Origin: a virus
Direction: 5' to 3' (one strand)
Virus record (IMG/VR): IMGVR_UViG_3300018041_000006
Span: 1 to 62,097 of that record
DNA length: 62,097 bases
Part shown: piece after piece, positions 3,308-58,061 of the stretch
Layout of the letters: each line of letters starts with the position of its first letter
How positions within the stretch are numbered: position 1 is the stretch's first letter
Program-made: the position numbers and the translations under genes
Notes under the pieces: generated by a model
Told to the model about the DNA's origin: nothing
Seen by the model: only the letters and a program-made list of their open reading frames with translations
Databases searched by the model: none

Positions 3308-3319
3308 TTTTATATATTC
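3308..3319 (-). promoter_or_regulatory. Promoter-like element before 891-aa gene
   Basis: The minus strand reads GAATATATAAAA, 20 bases before the ATG at 3288. It overlaps the stop codon of the preceding gene. It is one of the recurring AT-rich elements. Confidence 0.35.
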
Positions 3320-5151
3320 TTTATAAATTTTTCAAATGTTAAAAACTCCGATTCATTAGTAGACACGCTGTCTTCTAATTTTGTTTTTAGCTCATTGTAC
3401 ATTCCATGAATTTGCTTAGGAGTTAATTTTTTAAATAGCTTTTCATCGTTGTCAAGCATTGCATTTCTTACTTGAGTTGCTGAAATATTTTTACCAGTTC
3501 TTGGAATCTCGAATAGACCAAAATCATCTCTGACTCCGAGATCTTCTCTATATTCTGGTTTATCTACTTGGTATGAATAAGTTTTAAGCCTATCAGTTCC
3601 AGTACCCCAAAGTACAGGTTCATAGCCGTCTGCCCTCATTGCATTAAACATGTGGTCTATACCAGCAGTTGGAAGAACATAAACTTTTTCAATAGGATAC
3701 TTTGACTTTAATTGATTAAGCATTGCAATTTGAGTTTCCTCGTCATAAGGTCTCTTAAATGCATCCTCTGGTTTTTTAGTCTTTGATTTAATTAAAAATA
3801 TAACTACTGGATAACCATTTTGTTTGTTAATAGTTTCTATTACCTTAGCATGTCCCAATGTAAATGGCTGAAAGCGACCAACAAACATATTTACTGGCTT
3901 TTTACCTTGTTTAGGGTAACTAACAGTCAGTGCTTCAGTAATAGGACTTACTTGATGTTTTAGGTTTTCGTGATTTAAAAATGTTTTAAAGCTCATGAGA
4001 TTTGATTCATTGTTTTGAAGCATTACAACTGACTCTATTTTATCAACGATCTCGTTAATTTGAGACATTAAGTCATTGTTAATAATTTCAGTTTCTTTAA
4101 GTCTTCTTTTTCTAAAAGAACCTAGCGCAATTTTATATAATTCTTCTAGCACCTGGTTAGCTACTAACTCTATTGTTTTTTCATTAGTGATAAACTTAGT
4201 GTTTAGTGAAAAACTTGGTGAGTCAGAAAATTCAGCAGACTCAAATTTAACTCCAATATATTTGGTTGCGTTTTTATCAACATATGCATTAAATAATTGA
4301 GAGATTAGTTCAATATATCTTTTGTCAGAATCATTTTCGTTTAATTCTAGGTTTTCAATATCATATGTTGTAAAATATTCAACTAAATCTAGTAGTGCTA
4401 TCTGGTATATGTCAGATGGTTTTCTGTTTTCTTTTATAAGATCTTCTCCTTGACATATCTTAAAACTCTTTACACTTTTACCTTCGAAAAAATTAATAAT
4501 AATTGAATCAATCTCACCATCTAAATCTTCATTAAGAGCAGTTGAATTTAATCCTCTATTAAATATAGAATACATTTTTCTAGAAAAGCTTAGAGACTCA
4601 AACTGTGCATCGAAATCAGTATCGCTTAAATTTAGTAATTTTGTAATCTCATCCTTTTGATAATCAGAAAGTTTTCCTTGGTGTAAAATTTGAGGTCTTT
4701 GTACTTCTAGGATGTCAGCCCACTTTTCTAAGATTTTAGGATCTCTGATTACTTTCTTTATTAAAGTAGGGTCATTAGGACTCATTACTTGTATATGTGA
4801 AAGCATCAAATTATTTTTAGGTATTCTGTCGTACTTTATATTGACTGTTTTTGAATCGGTCATATAATCAAATCCAAATCTCCAGTCTAAAGGCATTTGC
4901 TCTTTAATATGATCGGGCTGTGATTCAAAATAGGTCACTGCATTTTCATAGTACTTTACAATTGTTCTATCAACCTTATCCATTGGTGATTTATTTCCAC
5001 TCTTATGATAATTATATCCTTTATCAGTTTTTTGAACATGGAAAGAAGACGCTTGTATCTTTTCTGCAACAACGCAGGTTAGATTTAGCATTTTTTGAAA
5101 ATCATTAATATTGCTTTCGCTATAATATGTTCTTAAATTTTGTAGTGCCAT
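3310..5151 (-). CDS. Ligase-like / cytidylyltransferase-like fusion protein
   Basis: 613 aa. The C-terminal domain (about 418-590) is a nucleotidyltransferase of the NadM/cytidylyltransferase superfamily: GRFQPFTLGH at 425-434 is the nucleotide-binding HxGH-type motif, and GKNISATQVRNAM is the ISxTxxR-type motif. Such enzymes transfer NMP to small molecules such as NMN. The N-terminal half (about 35-235) looks like a diverged covalent nucleotidyltransferase (RNA/DNA ligase fold): KTDKG at 41-45 resembles motif I, RFGFDYM at 91-97 motif III, and DSIIINFFEG with FKI near 215-231 motifs IV and V. A leader-like stretch MSFKTFLN (386-393) and ITE406|A precede the C-terminal domain, and the last residues FLTFEKFIKN are again leader-like. 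The next gene is another ligase-like protein, suggesting joint nucleotide/RNA repair or NAD metabolism. Substrates are unknown. Confidence 0.85.
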   Translation of the reverse strand: MALQNLRTYYSESNINDFQKMLNLTCVVAEKIQASSFHVQKTDKGYNYHKSGNKSPMDKVDRTIVKYYENAVTYFESQPDHIKEQMPLDWRFGFDYMTDSKTVNIKYDRIPKNNLMLSHIQVMSPNDPTLIKKVIRDPKILEKWADILEVQRPQILHQGKLSDYQKDEITKLLNLSDTDFDAQFESLSFSRKMYSIFNRGLNSTALNEDLDGEIDSIIINFFEGKSVKSFKICQGEDLIKENRKPSDIYQIALLDLVEYFTTYDIENLELNENDSDKRYIELISQLFNAYVDKNATKYIGVKFESAEFSDSPSFSLNTKFITNEKTIELVANQVLEELYKIALGSFRKRRLKETEIINNDLMSQINEIVDKIESVVMLQNNESNLMSFKTFLNHENLKHQVSPITEALTVSYPKQGKKPVNMFVGRFQPFTLGHAKVIETINKQNGYPVVIFLIKSKTKKPEDAFKRPYDEETQIAMLNQLKSKYPIEKVYVLPTAGIDHMFNAMRADGYEPVLWGTGTDRLKTYSYQVDKPEYREDLGVRDDFGLFEIPRTGKNISATQVRNAMLDNDEKLFKKLTPKQIHGMYNELKTKLEDSVSTNESEFLTFEKFIKNI

Positions 5152-53714: not shown

Positions 53715-54257
53715 TTACTCTTCTCCTACTGTATCTTCTGGACTTCTTCCAGCTGCCCATGCTTCTTTAGCCTCATCAATCTTCTTGCAGTAAGCCTCTT
53801 TAAGACTTTCACAAGCAGCTTCAAATGCTTCTAGAGTCATTTCTTCTCCTTTGACTTCAGAATGAGCATCTTCATTAGCCTTAGTAGCTAGAGCAGCAAC
53901 TAGAGCTGCATTTTCTTTCATGTATGATTCTAAAGTGTGATCTTCATAGTCGTCATTGTGGTATCCAACTGCTTCGGTTTTACAGCTTTCTCCATAAATT
54001 TCAGAAAGCATTTCTGAAACAGTTTTAGTTTCTTCAACTTCTTCAGTTTCTTCAACTTCTTCGTCAGATTCTTCAACTTCTTCAGTTTCTTCAGTTTCTT
54101 CGTCAGATTCTTCAGCTACTTCAATGTCTTCAGGAGTTTCTTCAACTTCATCCTCAAGATCTTCAACCTCGCCTCTATCTACGATGTCTTGTTCGATTTC
54201 TTCAGAACGGTCCGCTTCTTGGACGTATTGTTCAAATGATAAGATTTTCTTTGCCAT
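53715..54257 (-). CDS. Very acidic capsid-targeted protein (core/scaffold-like)
   Basis: 180 aa with an extreme Glu/Asp content. The N-terminus MAKKILSFEQYVQEADR is a leader variant with VQE14|A15. Residues about 30-78 are imperfect repeats of EETEEVEESDEEVE, followed by a more ordered helical part (ALVAALATKANEDAHSEVKG; FEAACESLKEAYCKKIDEAK). In T4 the acidic prohead core proteins (gp67, gp68 and the IPs) are leader-bearing and cleaved in the head, so this is a candidate core protein or packaged acidic protein. It forms its own transcription unit between a promoter-like element and a strong terminator. Confidence 0.85.
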   Translation of the reverse strand: MAKKILSFEQYVQEADRSEEIEQDIVDRGEVEDLEDEVEETPEDIEVAEESDEETEETEEVEESDEEVEETEEVEETKTVSEMLSEIYGESCKTEAVGYHNDDYEDHTLESYMKENAALVAALATKANEDAHSEVKGEEMTLEAFEAACESLKEAYCKKIDEAKEAWAAGRSPEDTVGEE

Positions 54258-54286
54258 TTTATTTAGTTTTGTTTTTTTCTTACGTA

Positions 54287-54296
54287 TTATATATCT
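54287..54296 (-). promoter_or_regulatory. Promoter-like element before acidic gene
   Basis: The minus strand reads AGATATATAA, 30 bases before the ATG at 54257, in the 41-base gap after the cupin-like gene's stop codon. Confidence 0.5.
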
Positions 54297-54298
54297 AC

Positions 54299-54604
54299 TT
54301 AATCTAATAATATTTTTAGTGTTAGTTCCGTAGTTCCTTTTATAATTCTATGGATAACTCCTTCAGGAATAAAAATACTGCAGTTTTTTTCTAGTTTAAC
54401 TGGAAACTCGTTATCAAATTGAAACTTCCAATCACTTTCATTAAGAGCTATTACAGTCCTATCTTCATTATCCCAATGCCATTTATATAAATGCTCTGGA
54501 TAGCTAGGATCAAAATGTCTAATAATATAACCATCGTAACGCTCTTCGGTGAAAGGTTTGCGTTGGTCATTTATCATATCAATCATTTCTTCATATGTTA
54601 CCAT
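54299..54604 (-). CDS. Cupin-like small protein
   Basis: I choose the ATG at 54604 (MVTYEEMIDMINDQRK), 101 aa, because the longer form (54664) reads deep into the upstream gene. The sequence HLYKWHWDNEDRTVIALNES followed by FPVKLEKNCSIFIPEGVIHR has the beta-sandwich pattern of a single-domain cupin. The metal-binding His pattern is incomplete, so activity is uncertain. It overlaps the end of the previous gene by 7 bases and does not carry the shared leader. Confidence 0.6.
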   Translation of the reverse strand: MVTYEEMIDMINDQRKPFTEERYDGYIIRHFDPSYPEHLYKWHWDNEDRTVIALNESDWKFQFDNEFPVKLEKNCSIFIPEGVIHRIIKGTTELTLKILLD

Positions 54605-55137
54605 GGTTGATCTGATTTTAAACCTAGTTGTTTTCCAAATAGAGTTGGACCATAACATGCCCAAAATCCTGTTTTAGAAGGATCCATTTTCTTTTGTAGA
54701 TCGCATTGATGGCGGGCCCAAAAGCTTGCTGCCCTACCAGGATCATCGTTCTTAATTGTTAAGTTAGGATCTCCCCATTCAATTTTAGTCGCAAGTATAT
54801 TACCCTCTTTATCAGTCCTACCGCTGTTATGGTATACTATAAATTTTTTACTACCTCCTTTTTCAGGGGAATCAAGTTTTACTTTAATTGTATTTCCTCC
54901 TCTAGGTTTATAGATAGCAGGCTTTCCAACCTCTAAGTTTTTTGCCATCCAGCCTGAAGGACCTTTAAGAATTACATTACCCTTATCCCAATATTCTTTA
55001 ACTTCTTCAAAAAGCTCGGCATACTTTTCACTACCAAGTCTAAAAAATGAATTAGTTAAATCTAAACCTTCATCAATATGCGCTTTTAGTTCTGGTGAAA
55101 CGTTTTCCCAATCTTCAAATGTCTTTATAAACTTCAT
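54598..55137 (-). CDS. Capsid-targeted protein with phage GDPN/RHxC domain
   Basis: 179 aa, leader variant MKFIKTFEDWENVSPELK with a candidate site IDE23|G24. The C-terminal ~110 residues carry a pattern I have seen in other phage proteins: a strand with KKFIVY, then GDPNLTIKNDDPGRAASFWA, RHQCD, and an aromatic FWACYGPTLF end. The conserved His/Cys (RHQC, FWAC) suggest a metal- or structure-related site. The domain's function is not known to me. It is encoded in the leader-bearing cluster, so I infer packaging. Confidence 0.78.
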   Translation of the reverse strand: MKFIKTFEDWENVSPELKAHIDEGLDLTNSFFRLGSEKYAELFEEVKEYWDKGNVILKGPSGWMAKNLEVGKPAIYKPRGGNTIKVKLDSPEKGGSKKFIVYHNSGRTDKEGNILATKIEWGDPNLTIKNDDPGRAASFWARHQCDLQKKMDPSKTGFWACYGPTLFGKQLGLKSDQPW

Positions 55138-55140
55138 ATC

Positions 55141-55425
55141 TTACTTTTCTAAAAGGTCTTTTCGATCTAGTTGTTTATAAACCTCTTTACGTGTTTTTTC
55201 CATCTTTTCAGCATATTCTGGATCTTCGTTCCTGTTAAATACAACCTGTTGTGTTAATGAACCACTGATTGCTTTTAAATCTTTTTTACGGGTTTTAATT
55301 AACCATGCTGCCAAATCTTTAGGTGAAAGGTCTCTAAATCTTCCTTCAGCATCTGGAAAATCTGAATCTTGCCATTTTGGAGAATTTTCAGACACGAATT
55401 GTTCAAAGTATCCAATAAATTTCAT
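55141..55425 (-). CDS. Small capsid-targeted protein
   Basis: I choose the second ATG (55425), giving 94 aa with MKFIGYFEQFVSENSPKW, so the leader is at the N-terminus; the ATG at 55428 differs by one codon. The site is VSE13|N14. The remainder is basic and helical (IKTRKKDLKAISGSLTQQVV). It overlaps the stop of the upstream kinase gene by a few bases. No family is recognised; an injected basic peptide is the inference. Confidence 0.78.
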   Translation of the reverse strand: MKFIGYFEQFVSENSPKWQDSDFPDAEGRFRDLSPKDLAAWLIKTRKKDLKAISGSLTQQVVFNRNEDPEYAEKMEKTRKEVYKQLDRKDLLEK

Positions 55426-56369
55426 CATGACGGTCTGTTTTTATCTTTAGCATAAGGCTGAGAATTATCTTGTATCCATCTCTTGCCTAGCGGATTTTGA
55501 ACGGGTGTTCTTAAATGTCTATTGATTTGTTTTTCAATTTCATTAAAAAGATCTTGATTGTCATATGATGAGTTATCAACAATTAGCAACCTATCTGCAC
55601 CAAAAAGTTTTTGAAATTTACCTAAGTTATATTGAACATCATTCCACATTTTTTCAACAATGGCATCAGGTAGTTTGCGTGCTCTATTTCTATTTCTTTC
55701 AAGAGCAACTTCAAGCGATGTATTTACGAATATCATGTACGTATCGTATCCTAAGTCTTGATACAATTTTCTTTTAGACTCAATTTTTTCAAAATCTTTA
55801 CCAGTACCGTCAATAACTTGGCCTAATCTACCACTTATGTAATTAGATTGCATCTTTCTAGTAACCTCCTTAGCTTTATTCCTAACCTTCATGACCTCTG
55901 CCCATACTTCAGTATCTTTAGCGTATTGCGCTAGTTTACCAGCATCATATCCAGCATCTTTAAGTTTCTTTTCAAAAGCATTGTCGTTATTAACTAATTT
56001 TAAACCAGTTGCATAAGAAACTGAAGAGAGTGCTTTTTTAGGAAAATCAAATAATTCTGTAGCAACGTAAGATTTTCCAGAGCCAGGGCCTCCTGCCATA
56101 AAAAAAGCTTTAAGTATTCCTGGATCATTTACGCCTTCATTAATTTCAGACTCTGATATAGCTCCTTTCTGATTAAACATAGATCTATTTACAGTTATGA
56201 CCCCAGAATCATCTTGTAGTTTTATAACATATTCATCTACATCAACTACTGTGTATTCTTGACCATAGTATAGTACTTTAGTATCAAGCTTAATCGCTTT
56301 AAAATCGTCCTTGCTTATTTTTTCTCCGTATTTCTTTACAAAGTCTTCAAATAGCTTAATATATTTCAT
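55425..56369 (-). CDS. Capsid-targeted zeta-toxin / kinase-like P-loop protein
   Basis: 314 aa. The leader is MKYIKLFEDFVKKYGEK; a small beta domain follows (about 25-65), then the site INE78|G79. Immediately after lies MAGGPGSGKSYVATEL with Walker A GGPGSGKS at 93-100, then KLVNNDNAF, VIDGTGKDFEKI, a lid-like VALERNRNRARKLP, and C-terminal helices. This order fits the zeta-toxin/polynucleotide-kinase-like family, which phosphorylates nucleotides, sugars or RNA ends. Predicted cleavage at 78 would free the kinase domain. I infer that it is injected with the DNA. The exact substrate is open. Confidence 0.8.
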   Translation of the reverse strand: MKYIKLFEDFVKKYGEKISKDDFKAIKLDTKVLYYGQEYTVVDVDEYVIKLQDDSGVITVNRSMFNQKGAISESEINEGVNDPGILKAFFMAGGPGSGKSYVATELFDFPKKALSSVSYATGLKLVNNDNAFEKKLKDAGYDAGKLAQYAKDTEVWAEVMKVRNKAKEVTRKMQSNYISGRLGQVIDGTGKDFEKIESKRKLYQDLGYDTYMIFVNTSLEVALERNRNRARKLPDAIVEKMWNDVQYNLGKFQKLFGADRLLIVDNSSYDNQDLFNEIEKQINRHLRTPVQNPLGKRWIQDNSQPYAKDKNRPS

Positions 56370-56388
56370 AGTTAAATATCTTTATTGT

Positions 56389-56700
56389 TTAATTAAAAAA
56401 GTGTCGATCCCAGTCTCTAAGTAGATTCTTAGCCCTTCCTCCATTGAAAACCTTGTTAAGAAGATACTGTACCTCTTTTCTTAATAATTTAGCTTGATCT
56501 TCAGTTGACCATTCTGCTTTAATTCTTGTCTCACGATCCGGATCTAGAATTACCTTAATTCCAGCCTTCTCAAGCTCTTCTCTTCTTTCGTCAGTAAAAT
56601 GCTTTTCAATAGAACCATAATAATCGGGTAAATATGCCGACCCGCTCGGTTTATGTTTCTTTTCGTTGACGAATTTTTCGAACAGTTTTATGTGTTTCAT
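56389..56700 (-). CDS. Small capsid-targeted protein
   Basis: 103 aa. The leader MKHIKLFEKFVNEK is almost the consensus of this family, with VNE13|K14. The body is basic and helical (FTDERREELEKAGIKVILDP; STEDQAKLLRKEVQYLLNKV). No enzyme motif is visible. Its start overlaps the stop of the upstream ADP-ribosyltransferase-like gene by one base, so the two are coupled. Confidence 0.82.
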   Translation of the reverse strand: MKHIKLFEKFVNEKKHKPSGSAYLPDYYGSIEKHFTDERREELEKAGIKVILDPDRETRIKAEWSTEDQAKLLRKEVQYLLNKVFNGGRAKNLLRDWDRHFFN

Positions 56701-57341
56701 TATGCTCTTTTAATATTTTCTGCCGGAATTGTTTCATATGAAACTGCTGATCTGGCTTCTTTTGGCATCAAAGGATCTTCCCATAAATTTAAACCCTTCG
56801 TGTCAATCTCTAAAACAACAGGATCCTGTATATCAAATAAATCTTGAACCATCTTAACTCCTTTTTTAGATCCTACAACAAATGCAGCGTTGTATGTTTG
56901 TTCAGTGTTTGAGTCTCCGACCGAAGAACCAAATTGATCTGAATGAGCAGATGCATTTCTAGGCTCTAGTCCATTAGTTAAAATAGATTCAACATTTGCC
57001 GATGCTGCAACATGATACGCCTTTCTTAATTTAGAAGGATATACTGTAAATATAAAACTAATGCCGTTCCCCATATAATACCCTACGCTCGTCTTCACTG
57101 CCATCATATCTCCATCTTTAGCAATCTTTTTAATTGAATTGATTGCCTTTTGCATCTTTGGAGGTATAACCTTAGTTTGATTAGGTAAATCTATACTTAA
57201 CGTAGTACCTGATCCGCTAACTTCATAGCCTTCTCCTTCTAAAAACTTTCTAACTTTTTCTTGTGTTGAAATAGGATCTGCAGCCTCGCTTACATTCTGC
57301 ATCGAATCCCATTCTTCAAATAATTTTACATGTTTATTCAT
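56700..57341 (-). CDS. Capsid-targeted ADP-ribosyltransferase-like protein
   Basis: 213 aa. The leader MNKHVKLFEEWDSMQNVSEA has VSE19|A. The C-terminal half resembles the ART/DarT/KptA-like fold: RKAYHVAASANVESILTNGL (H110 as the NAD-binding His), a central Tyr in the strand TYNAAFVVGS, VVLEIDTKGL, and a final acidic strand SYETIPAENIKRA with E203. This His-Tyr-Glu order with the closing 'IP..I' tail is typical of these enzymes. T4 packages its own ADP-ribosyltransferase (Alt) and injects it to modify host RNA polymerase, which gives this gene a clear functional parallel. Target and activity are not shown. Confidence 0.7.
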   Translation of the reverse strand: MNKHVKLFEEWDSMQNVSEAADPISTQEKVRKFLEGEGYEVSGSGTTLSIDLPNQTKVIPPKMQKAINSIKKIAKDGDMMAVKTSVGYYMGNGISFIFTVYPSKLRKAYHVAASANVESILTNGLEPRNASAHSDQFGSSVGDSNTEQTYNAAFVVGSKKGVKMVQDLFDIQDPVVLEIDTKGLNLWEDPLMPKEARSAVSYETIPAENIKRA

Positions 57342-57356
57342 GATATATTTATATCT

Positions 57357-58061
57357 TTAAAATTTAGGTATACCTCCTATTTTTGTCGCCCTTCTTCTCC
57401 AAACGTCCATTACTTCCTTTCTTGTTTTAGGAGTTAAATATTTTTGGGTGTCTAAATAATTGTTAACAGCGTCGATCATTTCGATTTTTCTCTTTTTTGC
57501 CTCATATCTAAGACCTTGTAGATTTGCGTCTACTTCTTTTGGTAAGATTAAGTAGTGATATTTTGGTAAAAAATCTAGTTCAATTAACTTTCTTAATTCT
57601 GTATCATCTTCCTGTGGCTTTCCCTTTCGGTAATTACCAACACTAACGCCATCTTGGGTTATATGTTCTATTTCATGTCTCATAACATCTGCAAGATGCA
57701 TGTATGTATTTGACCATTCTCCTGGAAGCCATTTTGGGTTAATTGCAAAATCAATTATAATATAAGGAGTCTGATCTTCCCACTCATCTTCTTTTTCATC
57801 ATAGACTTCGTCTCTACCATCAGCACCAGTACTATTAAGTATTTCAAATCCATTTCCTTTAAAGTATATACTTGCTTCTAAGTCAAATTCTATTCCCCTG
57901 TCAGTATCCTCAATCTGATCGATATATGTTGATTCTTTTTTACCAGAATTAAAATCGTTAACCCATTTTGTAAATACTTTTCGCACTAAGGATCCTGAAA
58001 GAGTATCCCAACTCTTTCTACCCTCATTTAAAAAAAGGTCTATTGATTTAATGTGCTTCAT
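57357..58061 (-). CDS. Capsid-targeted HExxH protein
   Basis: 234 aa. The leader is MKHIKSIDLFLNEG with LNE13|G14. Residues 128-136 contain MRHEIEHIT, with HEIEH at 129-133 as a zinc-metallopeptidase motif. A downstream Glu in LPKEVDANLQGLRYEA could be the third ligand of a gluzincin-like site. The N-terminal half is beta-like (RGIEFDLEASIYFKGNG; PYIIIDFAINPKW) and the C-terminus basic. With the HExxH protein at 1-545 it makes two leader-bearing metallopeptidase candidates. It begins just after a strong terminator, so it has its own start of transcription. Confidence 0.75.
   Translation of the reverse strand: MKHIKSIDLFLNEGRKSWDTLSGSLVRKVFTKWVNDFNSGKKESTYIDQIEDTDRGIEFDLEASIYFKGNGFEILNSTGADGRDEVYDEKEDEWEDQTPYIIIDFAINPKWLPGEWSNTYMHLADVMRHEIEHITQDGVSVGNYRKGKPQEDDTELRKLIELDFLPKYHYLILPKEVDANLQGLRYEAKKRKIEMIDAVNNYLDTQKYLTPKTRKEVMDVWRRRATKIGGIPKF

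Follow-up and report, generated by a model that had tools for sequence, protein, structure and literature searches.

A phage protein with a capsid-targeting-like leader and a predicted ADP-ribosyltransferase fold whose active site is non-canonical

Is the small protein encoded at this locus an ADP-ribosyltransferase (ART) that travels in the phage head and enters the host with the DNA, and if so, with what kind of active site? The window, meaning the whole stretch of DNA that was analyzed, spans 62,097 bases and comes from IMG/VR as a linear record. Its ORF at 56700–57341 on the minus strand was confirmed and is a member of a same-strand gene run (Table 1). Baseplate and tail-sheath families were found in the window, so the phage is contractile-tailed. 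The overlapping contig L001 carries an identical copy of the 213-residue protein, a 122,950-base contig of a sister phage (G001) carries a homologue at 73% to it (L002), and gp144 of Sphingomonas phage PAU is a full-length homologue with 31% identity. Counting the window, L002, and PAU, there are only three distinct full-length homologues. The PAU host strain was moved to Sphingobacterium, going by the title of White and Suttle (2013) as given in PMC10537231, and a Bacteroidetes host is therefore likely for the window/PAU phage group.

Searches of Pfam, NCBIfam, and PHROGs with the single protein gave no match above cut-off; a PARP match stayed below threshold (0.049). Scans of the genome contigs gave no relative. 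A match to XaC1_497 (E 0.08) is a weak lead. The match in L018 was rejected as a relative since it is an unrelated long protein, and the pattern matches in L014 and L070 were rejected as unrelated proteins. In the sister phage (L055 8267–12895), the ART-like gene is flanked by DnaK-like and DnaJ-like genes, by sequence reading only.

Table 1. Coordinates of the ORF, its lobes, its leader, and its active-site positions in the window
Feature	Position	Strand	Remarks
ORF, leader + two folded lobes	56700..57341	-	213 aa, ATG start; homologues L002, PAU gp144
N-terminal leader, residues 1-19 MNKHVKLFEEWDSMQNVSE	57285..57341	-	capsid-targeting-like; predicted cleavage after VSE19
N-lobe, residues 22-101, alpha-beta-alpha-beta-beta	57039..57278	-	no known family; model pLDDT mostly 79-95; kept in L002, PAU
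C-lobe, residues 107-213, predicted ART fold (KptA/DarT-like)	56703..57023	-	models + profile matches
H110 (YHVA), invariant ART histidine	57012..57014	-	invariant in all 13 aligned domains
F154, central aromatic (Tyr in canonical ARTs)	56880..56882	-	column F or Y in 13/13 sequences
EDPLM 188-192, loop before last catalytic strand (ARTT-loop position)	56766..56780	-	D189-P190-M192 invariant in clade
S198, invariant Ser beside catalytic-Glu position	56748..56750	-	DarT1 E152 aligns with R197
E203, proposed catalytic Glu	56733..56735	-	varies in the clade; falls on DarT1 E158 and not on catalytic E152
Leader-bearing gene island	53715..58061	-	53715, 54598, 55141, 55425 (P-loop kinase/zeta-like), 56389, 56700, 57357

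A leader shared with neighboring genes

Capsid-targeting leaders are well studied in T4. The T4-type capsid targeting sequences are N-terminal propeptides of 10-20 residues that are cut off by the prohead protease (PMC5694885, PMC3012670). The leader of the window protein reads MNKHVKLFEEW..VSE/A (the slash marks the presumed cut), and the neighboring genes open with similar leaders (MKHIKLFEKFVNE, MKYIKLFEDFVKK, MMKFIGYFEQFVSE, MKFIKTFEDWENV, MKHIKSIDLFLNE, and others), so that an N-terminal leader of 10-20 residues is common to unrelated cargo. In the window, a strict leader pattern was found at 6/57 gene starts compared to 2/321 internal-Met controls (Fisher p = 2e-4), a test that is partly circular since the pattern was composed after viewing the window leaders. 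In G001, the same pattern was found at 11 of 135 gene starts and 5 of 822 internal methionines (p = 7e-7). The preliminary description had called the protein capsid-targeted; its claim of a capsid-targeting-like leader holds, and the leader is shared with neighbors above chance.

Because of the circularity, the contexts in G001 and PAU are the stronger evidence. In G001, one leader gene (MKYLRLFEQFIKEA) lies between the portal (phrog_213, 4.7e-75) and the head maturation protease (phrog_207, 1.9e-35), and another (MKYVKLFEQFLIAE) has the protease on one side and the major head protein (phrog_138, 1.7e-46) on the other. In PAU, a leader of the form MKT[LI]xxL[YF]E is present on 13 of the 26 genes examined around the portal, the protease gp151, and the MCP, and the PAU leader genes gp142 and gp154 are annotated as internal capsid protein. 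Since the leaders of both phages sit among portal, head protease, and MCP genes, there is good support for a T4-type capsid-targeting role of the leader. Near the same place, sites ending in E are seen in all three homologues: VSE/A in the window, INE/A in L002, and LFE/S in PAU. The motif [ILV]xE shows a weak enrichment with a loose leader pattern (22/40 compared to 45/152). The cut would probably lie between VSE19 and A20. In the AlphaFold model, residues 1-18 are disordered (pLDDT <50), and the fold starts at 22-23.

The leader is also seen on other cargo. In the window, the gene at 55425–56369 (minus strand) has the leader MKYIKLFEDFVKK followed by a P-loop kinase or zeta-toxin-like domain (AAA_33 8e-10, Zeta_toxin 1e-8), and its product is a candidate for another packaged effector. 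The gene at 57357–58061 (minus strand) opens with the leader MKHIKSIDLFLNEG; the protein behind it contains HEIEH, may be a metallopeptidase, and has no Pfam match. Beside the 73% homologue, L055 11312–11881 (plus strand) joins a leader to a GNAT-like acetyltransferase domain (3e-5, just under the Pfam cut-off). On the L001 contig, G002 2047–2313 has the leader joined directly to the apparent C-terminal part of this same protein, without the GNAT domain, which looks like a loss of cargo with the leader retained. Another deletion between leader and C-terminus is seen in the gene remnant at the start of contig L003 (430–560): a leader-like start, MKHIKKYNQF, is fused in a different frame to the final 33 residues encoded by the ART-like gene (KGLEFWEDPLMPKEAKSALTFQTIPGYKIKRL). 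Leader-like starts (MKFLEFITEE and MVMITKFHLFERSKN) together with ART-like YHxT domains are present in L023 8824–9630 (minus strand) and in L043, the latter apparently with two such domains.

Predicted fold and active-site residues

The first AlphaFold model, built on an alignment of three sequences, had a pLDDT of 59 and is too weak alone; with it, KptA/Tpt1 already headed the Foldseek matches, followed by DarT1. Scanning DNA for the motif YH[VI]x..ESI..GL gave about 30 phage ART-like domains. Alignment A3, which holds 13 ART-like domains in the MAFFT register, was the input for an enriched model and for a profile. The model made with A3 reached a pLDDT of 82 and a pTM of 0.72, and its Foldseek list was headed by KptA/Tpt1 (best E 4e-5), with DarT1 and further ARTs behind, so that the top ranks were held by ART-superfamily structures only. 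In BFVD, the top match was a 208-residue protein (29% identity, TM 0.67) that, by its length and identity, is probably PAU gp144, and phage KptA/DarT-like proteins came after it. Independent of structure, the A3 profile matched DarT1 at 5e-6 and KptA at 1e-4, with only KptA below these, down to 0.11. DarT1 and KptA were also at the top with a clade-only profile, but with E of only about 0.1 (0.08).

An ART fold in the C-lobe is thus well supported by predicted models and profile matches alike. This agrees with the ART/DarT/KptA-like core in the preliminary description, and the structure comparison does not point to a fold unrelated to ARTs. The TM-scores to KptA are low (0.35-0.45), which means that the two-lobe arrangement is not matched and that “KptA N-lobe” is not a suitable label for the N-lobe. 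A profile match of the N-lobe to PAU gp141 was judged a chance local match and rejected.

The same description had named H110, a central Tyr strand, and E203, in that order, as the catalytic set. Of these, H110 stood as the ART histidine, being invariant in every aligned relative. The central aromatic of the strand is F154, found in all three family members, and Y150, which is conserved in the three close homologues only, lies upstream of the strand. A hand register with the central Tyr at V155 was dropped since the MAFFT register gives an all-aromatic column at F154. E203 did not hold up in the close homologues or beyond, as its column reads Glu in the window and L002, Asp in PAU, Gln in the L003 remnant, and Thr in both L042 domains. 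This makes the H-Y-E reading wrong.

The catalytic glutamate of DarT1 is E152, and the crystallized chain carries E152A (PMC11543638). E203 lies five to six residues downstream of this catalytic-Glu position. In the clade, the Glu column itself is R, K, D, or S, and a conserved acid is absent there. The neighboring S198 column is Ser in the window, L002, PAU, both L042 domains, and the L003 remnant. It is Glu in the short phage relatives L020, L030, L038, and L039, so the superfamily has both Glu and Ser types, and the window protein is of the Ser type. Invariant across the clade are Y109, H110, I120, G124, D189, P190, M192, S198, and I210, D189 being the sole invariant acid. Compared to the H-Y-[EDQ] clade, the first-strand His is present, while the central Tyr and an E, D, or Q at the start of the last core strand are missing. 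As read from the alignment, the residue set of the protein is H110-F154-S198 plus an (E/D)DPxM motif, so it is not a canonical H-Y-E enzyme. A protein without the Glu could still be active, since H-Y-[L/I/V] is given as an indicator of mono-ADP-ribosylation in PARPs (PMC11281641).

Proposed packaging and function

The proposed explanation, to which we would give an even chance, is an effector with an ART fold and a non-canonical active site that is packaged and injected; its packaging, cleavage, injection, NAD+ use, activity, and target are all inferred. The T4-type leader would carry the protein into the prohead, where the head protease would probably cut it off after VSE19. The mature protein would then be an internal head protein that travels inside the capsid and leaves it together with the DNA. 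The C-terminal ART-fold lobe would most likely bind NAD+ via H110 and F154 and, early in infection, would act on host nucleic acid or protein by mono-ADP-ribosylation or a related NAD+-dependent reaction. S198 may stand at or beside the usual place of the Glu, with the conserved D189-P-x-M loop possibly assisting. One could go further and propose that the capsid delivers a clade of ARTs whose active site is built in a new way (H-F-S and an invariant D-P-x-M loop), active on a host target and part of a one-leader, PAU-type cargo set of kinase-, acetyltransferase-, peptidase-, and ART-like proteins; this fuller version is tentative and, taken whole, possible but somewhat unlikely. Elsewhere in the window, a 613-residue protein (3310–5151, minus strand) has a C-terminal nucleotidyltransferase domain (CTP_transf_like 1.3e-8; PHROG NMN adenylyltransferase 1e-4), a possible link to NAD.

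The main rival is a packaged pseudo-enzyme, which would have kept the ART fold, lost catalysis, and exerted its effect as a binder of nucleic acid, of ADP-ribose, or of a host protein or host defense enzyme, with T4 internal protein I as inhibitor for its model. A Phe at the Tyr position and an Arg, Lys, Asp, or Ser at the Glu position would suit such a protein, as would the shrinking of the L003 gene to a remnant, and the T4 internal proteins are described as diverse defense proteins with only the CTS in common (PMC3012670). However, H110, the aromatic, D189-P-x-M, and S198 stay fixed or almost fixed in relatives with as little as about 23-35% identity, the two tandem copies in L042 among them, and such retention exceeds the expectation for a freely drifting active site; we consider the pseudo-enzyme a possible but somewhat unlikely account. 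It is improbable that the leader is some other kind of shared N-terminus and that the protein acts after new synthesis in the infected cell. The leader genes are indeed scattered across more than one region, but in two phages they lie between portal, protease, and MCP, their post-leader sites end in E, and in the model the fold follows directly after the disordered residues 1-18.

Two further readings concern the reaction. A canonical H-Y-E enzyme using H110, a central Tyr, and E203, and acting like Alt on host RNA polymerase, would fit with the ART fold, with H110, and with an acidic residue at position 203 in all three full-length homologues. It is very unlikely given the Thr of both L042 domains and the Gln of the L003 remnant at that position, the alignment of E203 with DarT1 E158, and the central Phe. 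Least probable of all is a KptA/Tpt1-type RNA 2'-phosphotransferase for RNA repair, even with KptA/Tpt1 as the best structural matches across both lobes: PF01885 has no match in the window, the N-lobe has nothing that corresponds to LRH and IRAVQGHS of E. coli KptA, AFVVGS replaces the histidines of HVHLS, and an hhalign comparison with the E. coli enzyme covers the 19-residue YH..GL motif alone.

With the leader, one can list directly what a PAU-type phage would inject, including an ART fold whose active site is altered. If active, the window protein would widen the range of working ART centers; if dead, it would be a packaged binder or decoy with an ART fold. PAU has been cultured, so these alternatives are accessible there.

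Comparison with known systems

PAU gp144, a homologue that has no named function, has the same leader-lobe-lobe layout and differs in having Asp in place of E203 and a shorter leader, MKTLTSLLFE/S. KptA/Tpt1 shares a fold alignment across both lobes, whereas the window protein has another lobe arrangement (rmsd about 11) and lacks the family's motifs along with a PF01885 match, which places it outside that family. DarT1 is the best profile match among solved structures, and DarT1/DarT2 have in common with the window protein the YH..SIL..GL start and the IPxxxI end; the catalytic E152 is, however, replaced by R197 beside S198, and with neither that Glu nor a PF14487 match the protein is not a DarT.

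The T4 internal head proteins IPI-III are not known as ART folds. Their likeness is that of diverse small cargo with the leader alone in common (PMC3012670). With T4 Alt, which the preliminary description had offered as an analogue, the window protein shares at most the presumed delivery route (a short cleaved N-terminal leader, packaging, and injection) and the ART superfamily. Homology to Alt did not stand, as Alt belongs to the R-S-E clade (PMC5512222) and the first position of the window protein is His; no Alt/VIP2 match was found for it in Pfam, PHROGs, or NCBIfam.

According to Iyer and co-workers, about 44% of phage ARTs, from several families, are in contexts suggesting head packaging (PMC9503650), and injection has been proposed for ART domains in polyvalent proteins (PMC5512222). 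The most frequent viral ART families given there are N4-like, PART, ORF28, p0068-like, Alt/VIP2, and Mod (PMC5512222, PMC9503650), and the H-F-S/(E/D)DPxM clade was not found among the ARTs in the passages of these two papers that were consulted. The closest relative outside the full-length family is a 742-residue, polyvalent-looking protein (L042 6897–9125, plus strand) that matches Kinase-PolyVal weakly and contains two clade domains in tandem, with an (E/D)DPEMP motif. Head-packaged ARTs of several families have already been described, and the general idea is known; new are the ART clade itself, the pattern of residues that marks it, and the link in PAU-like phages between this clade and a T4-type leader.
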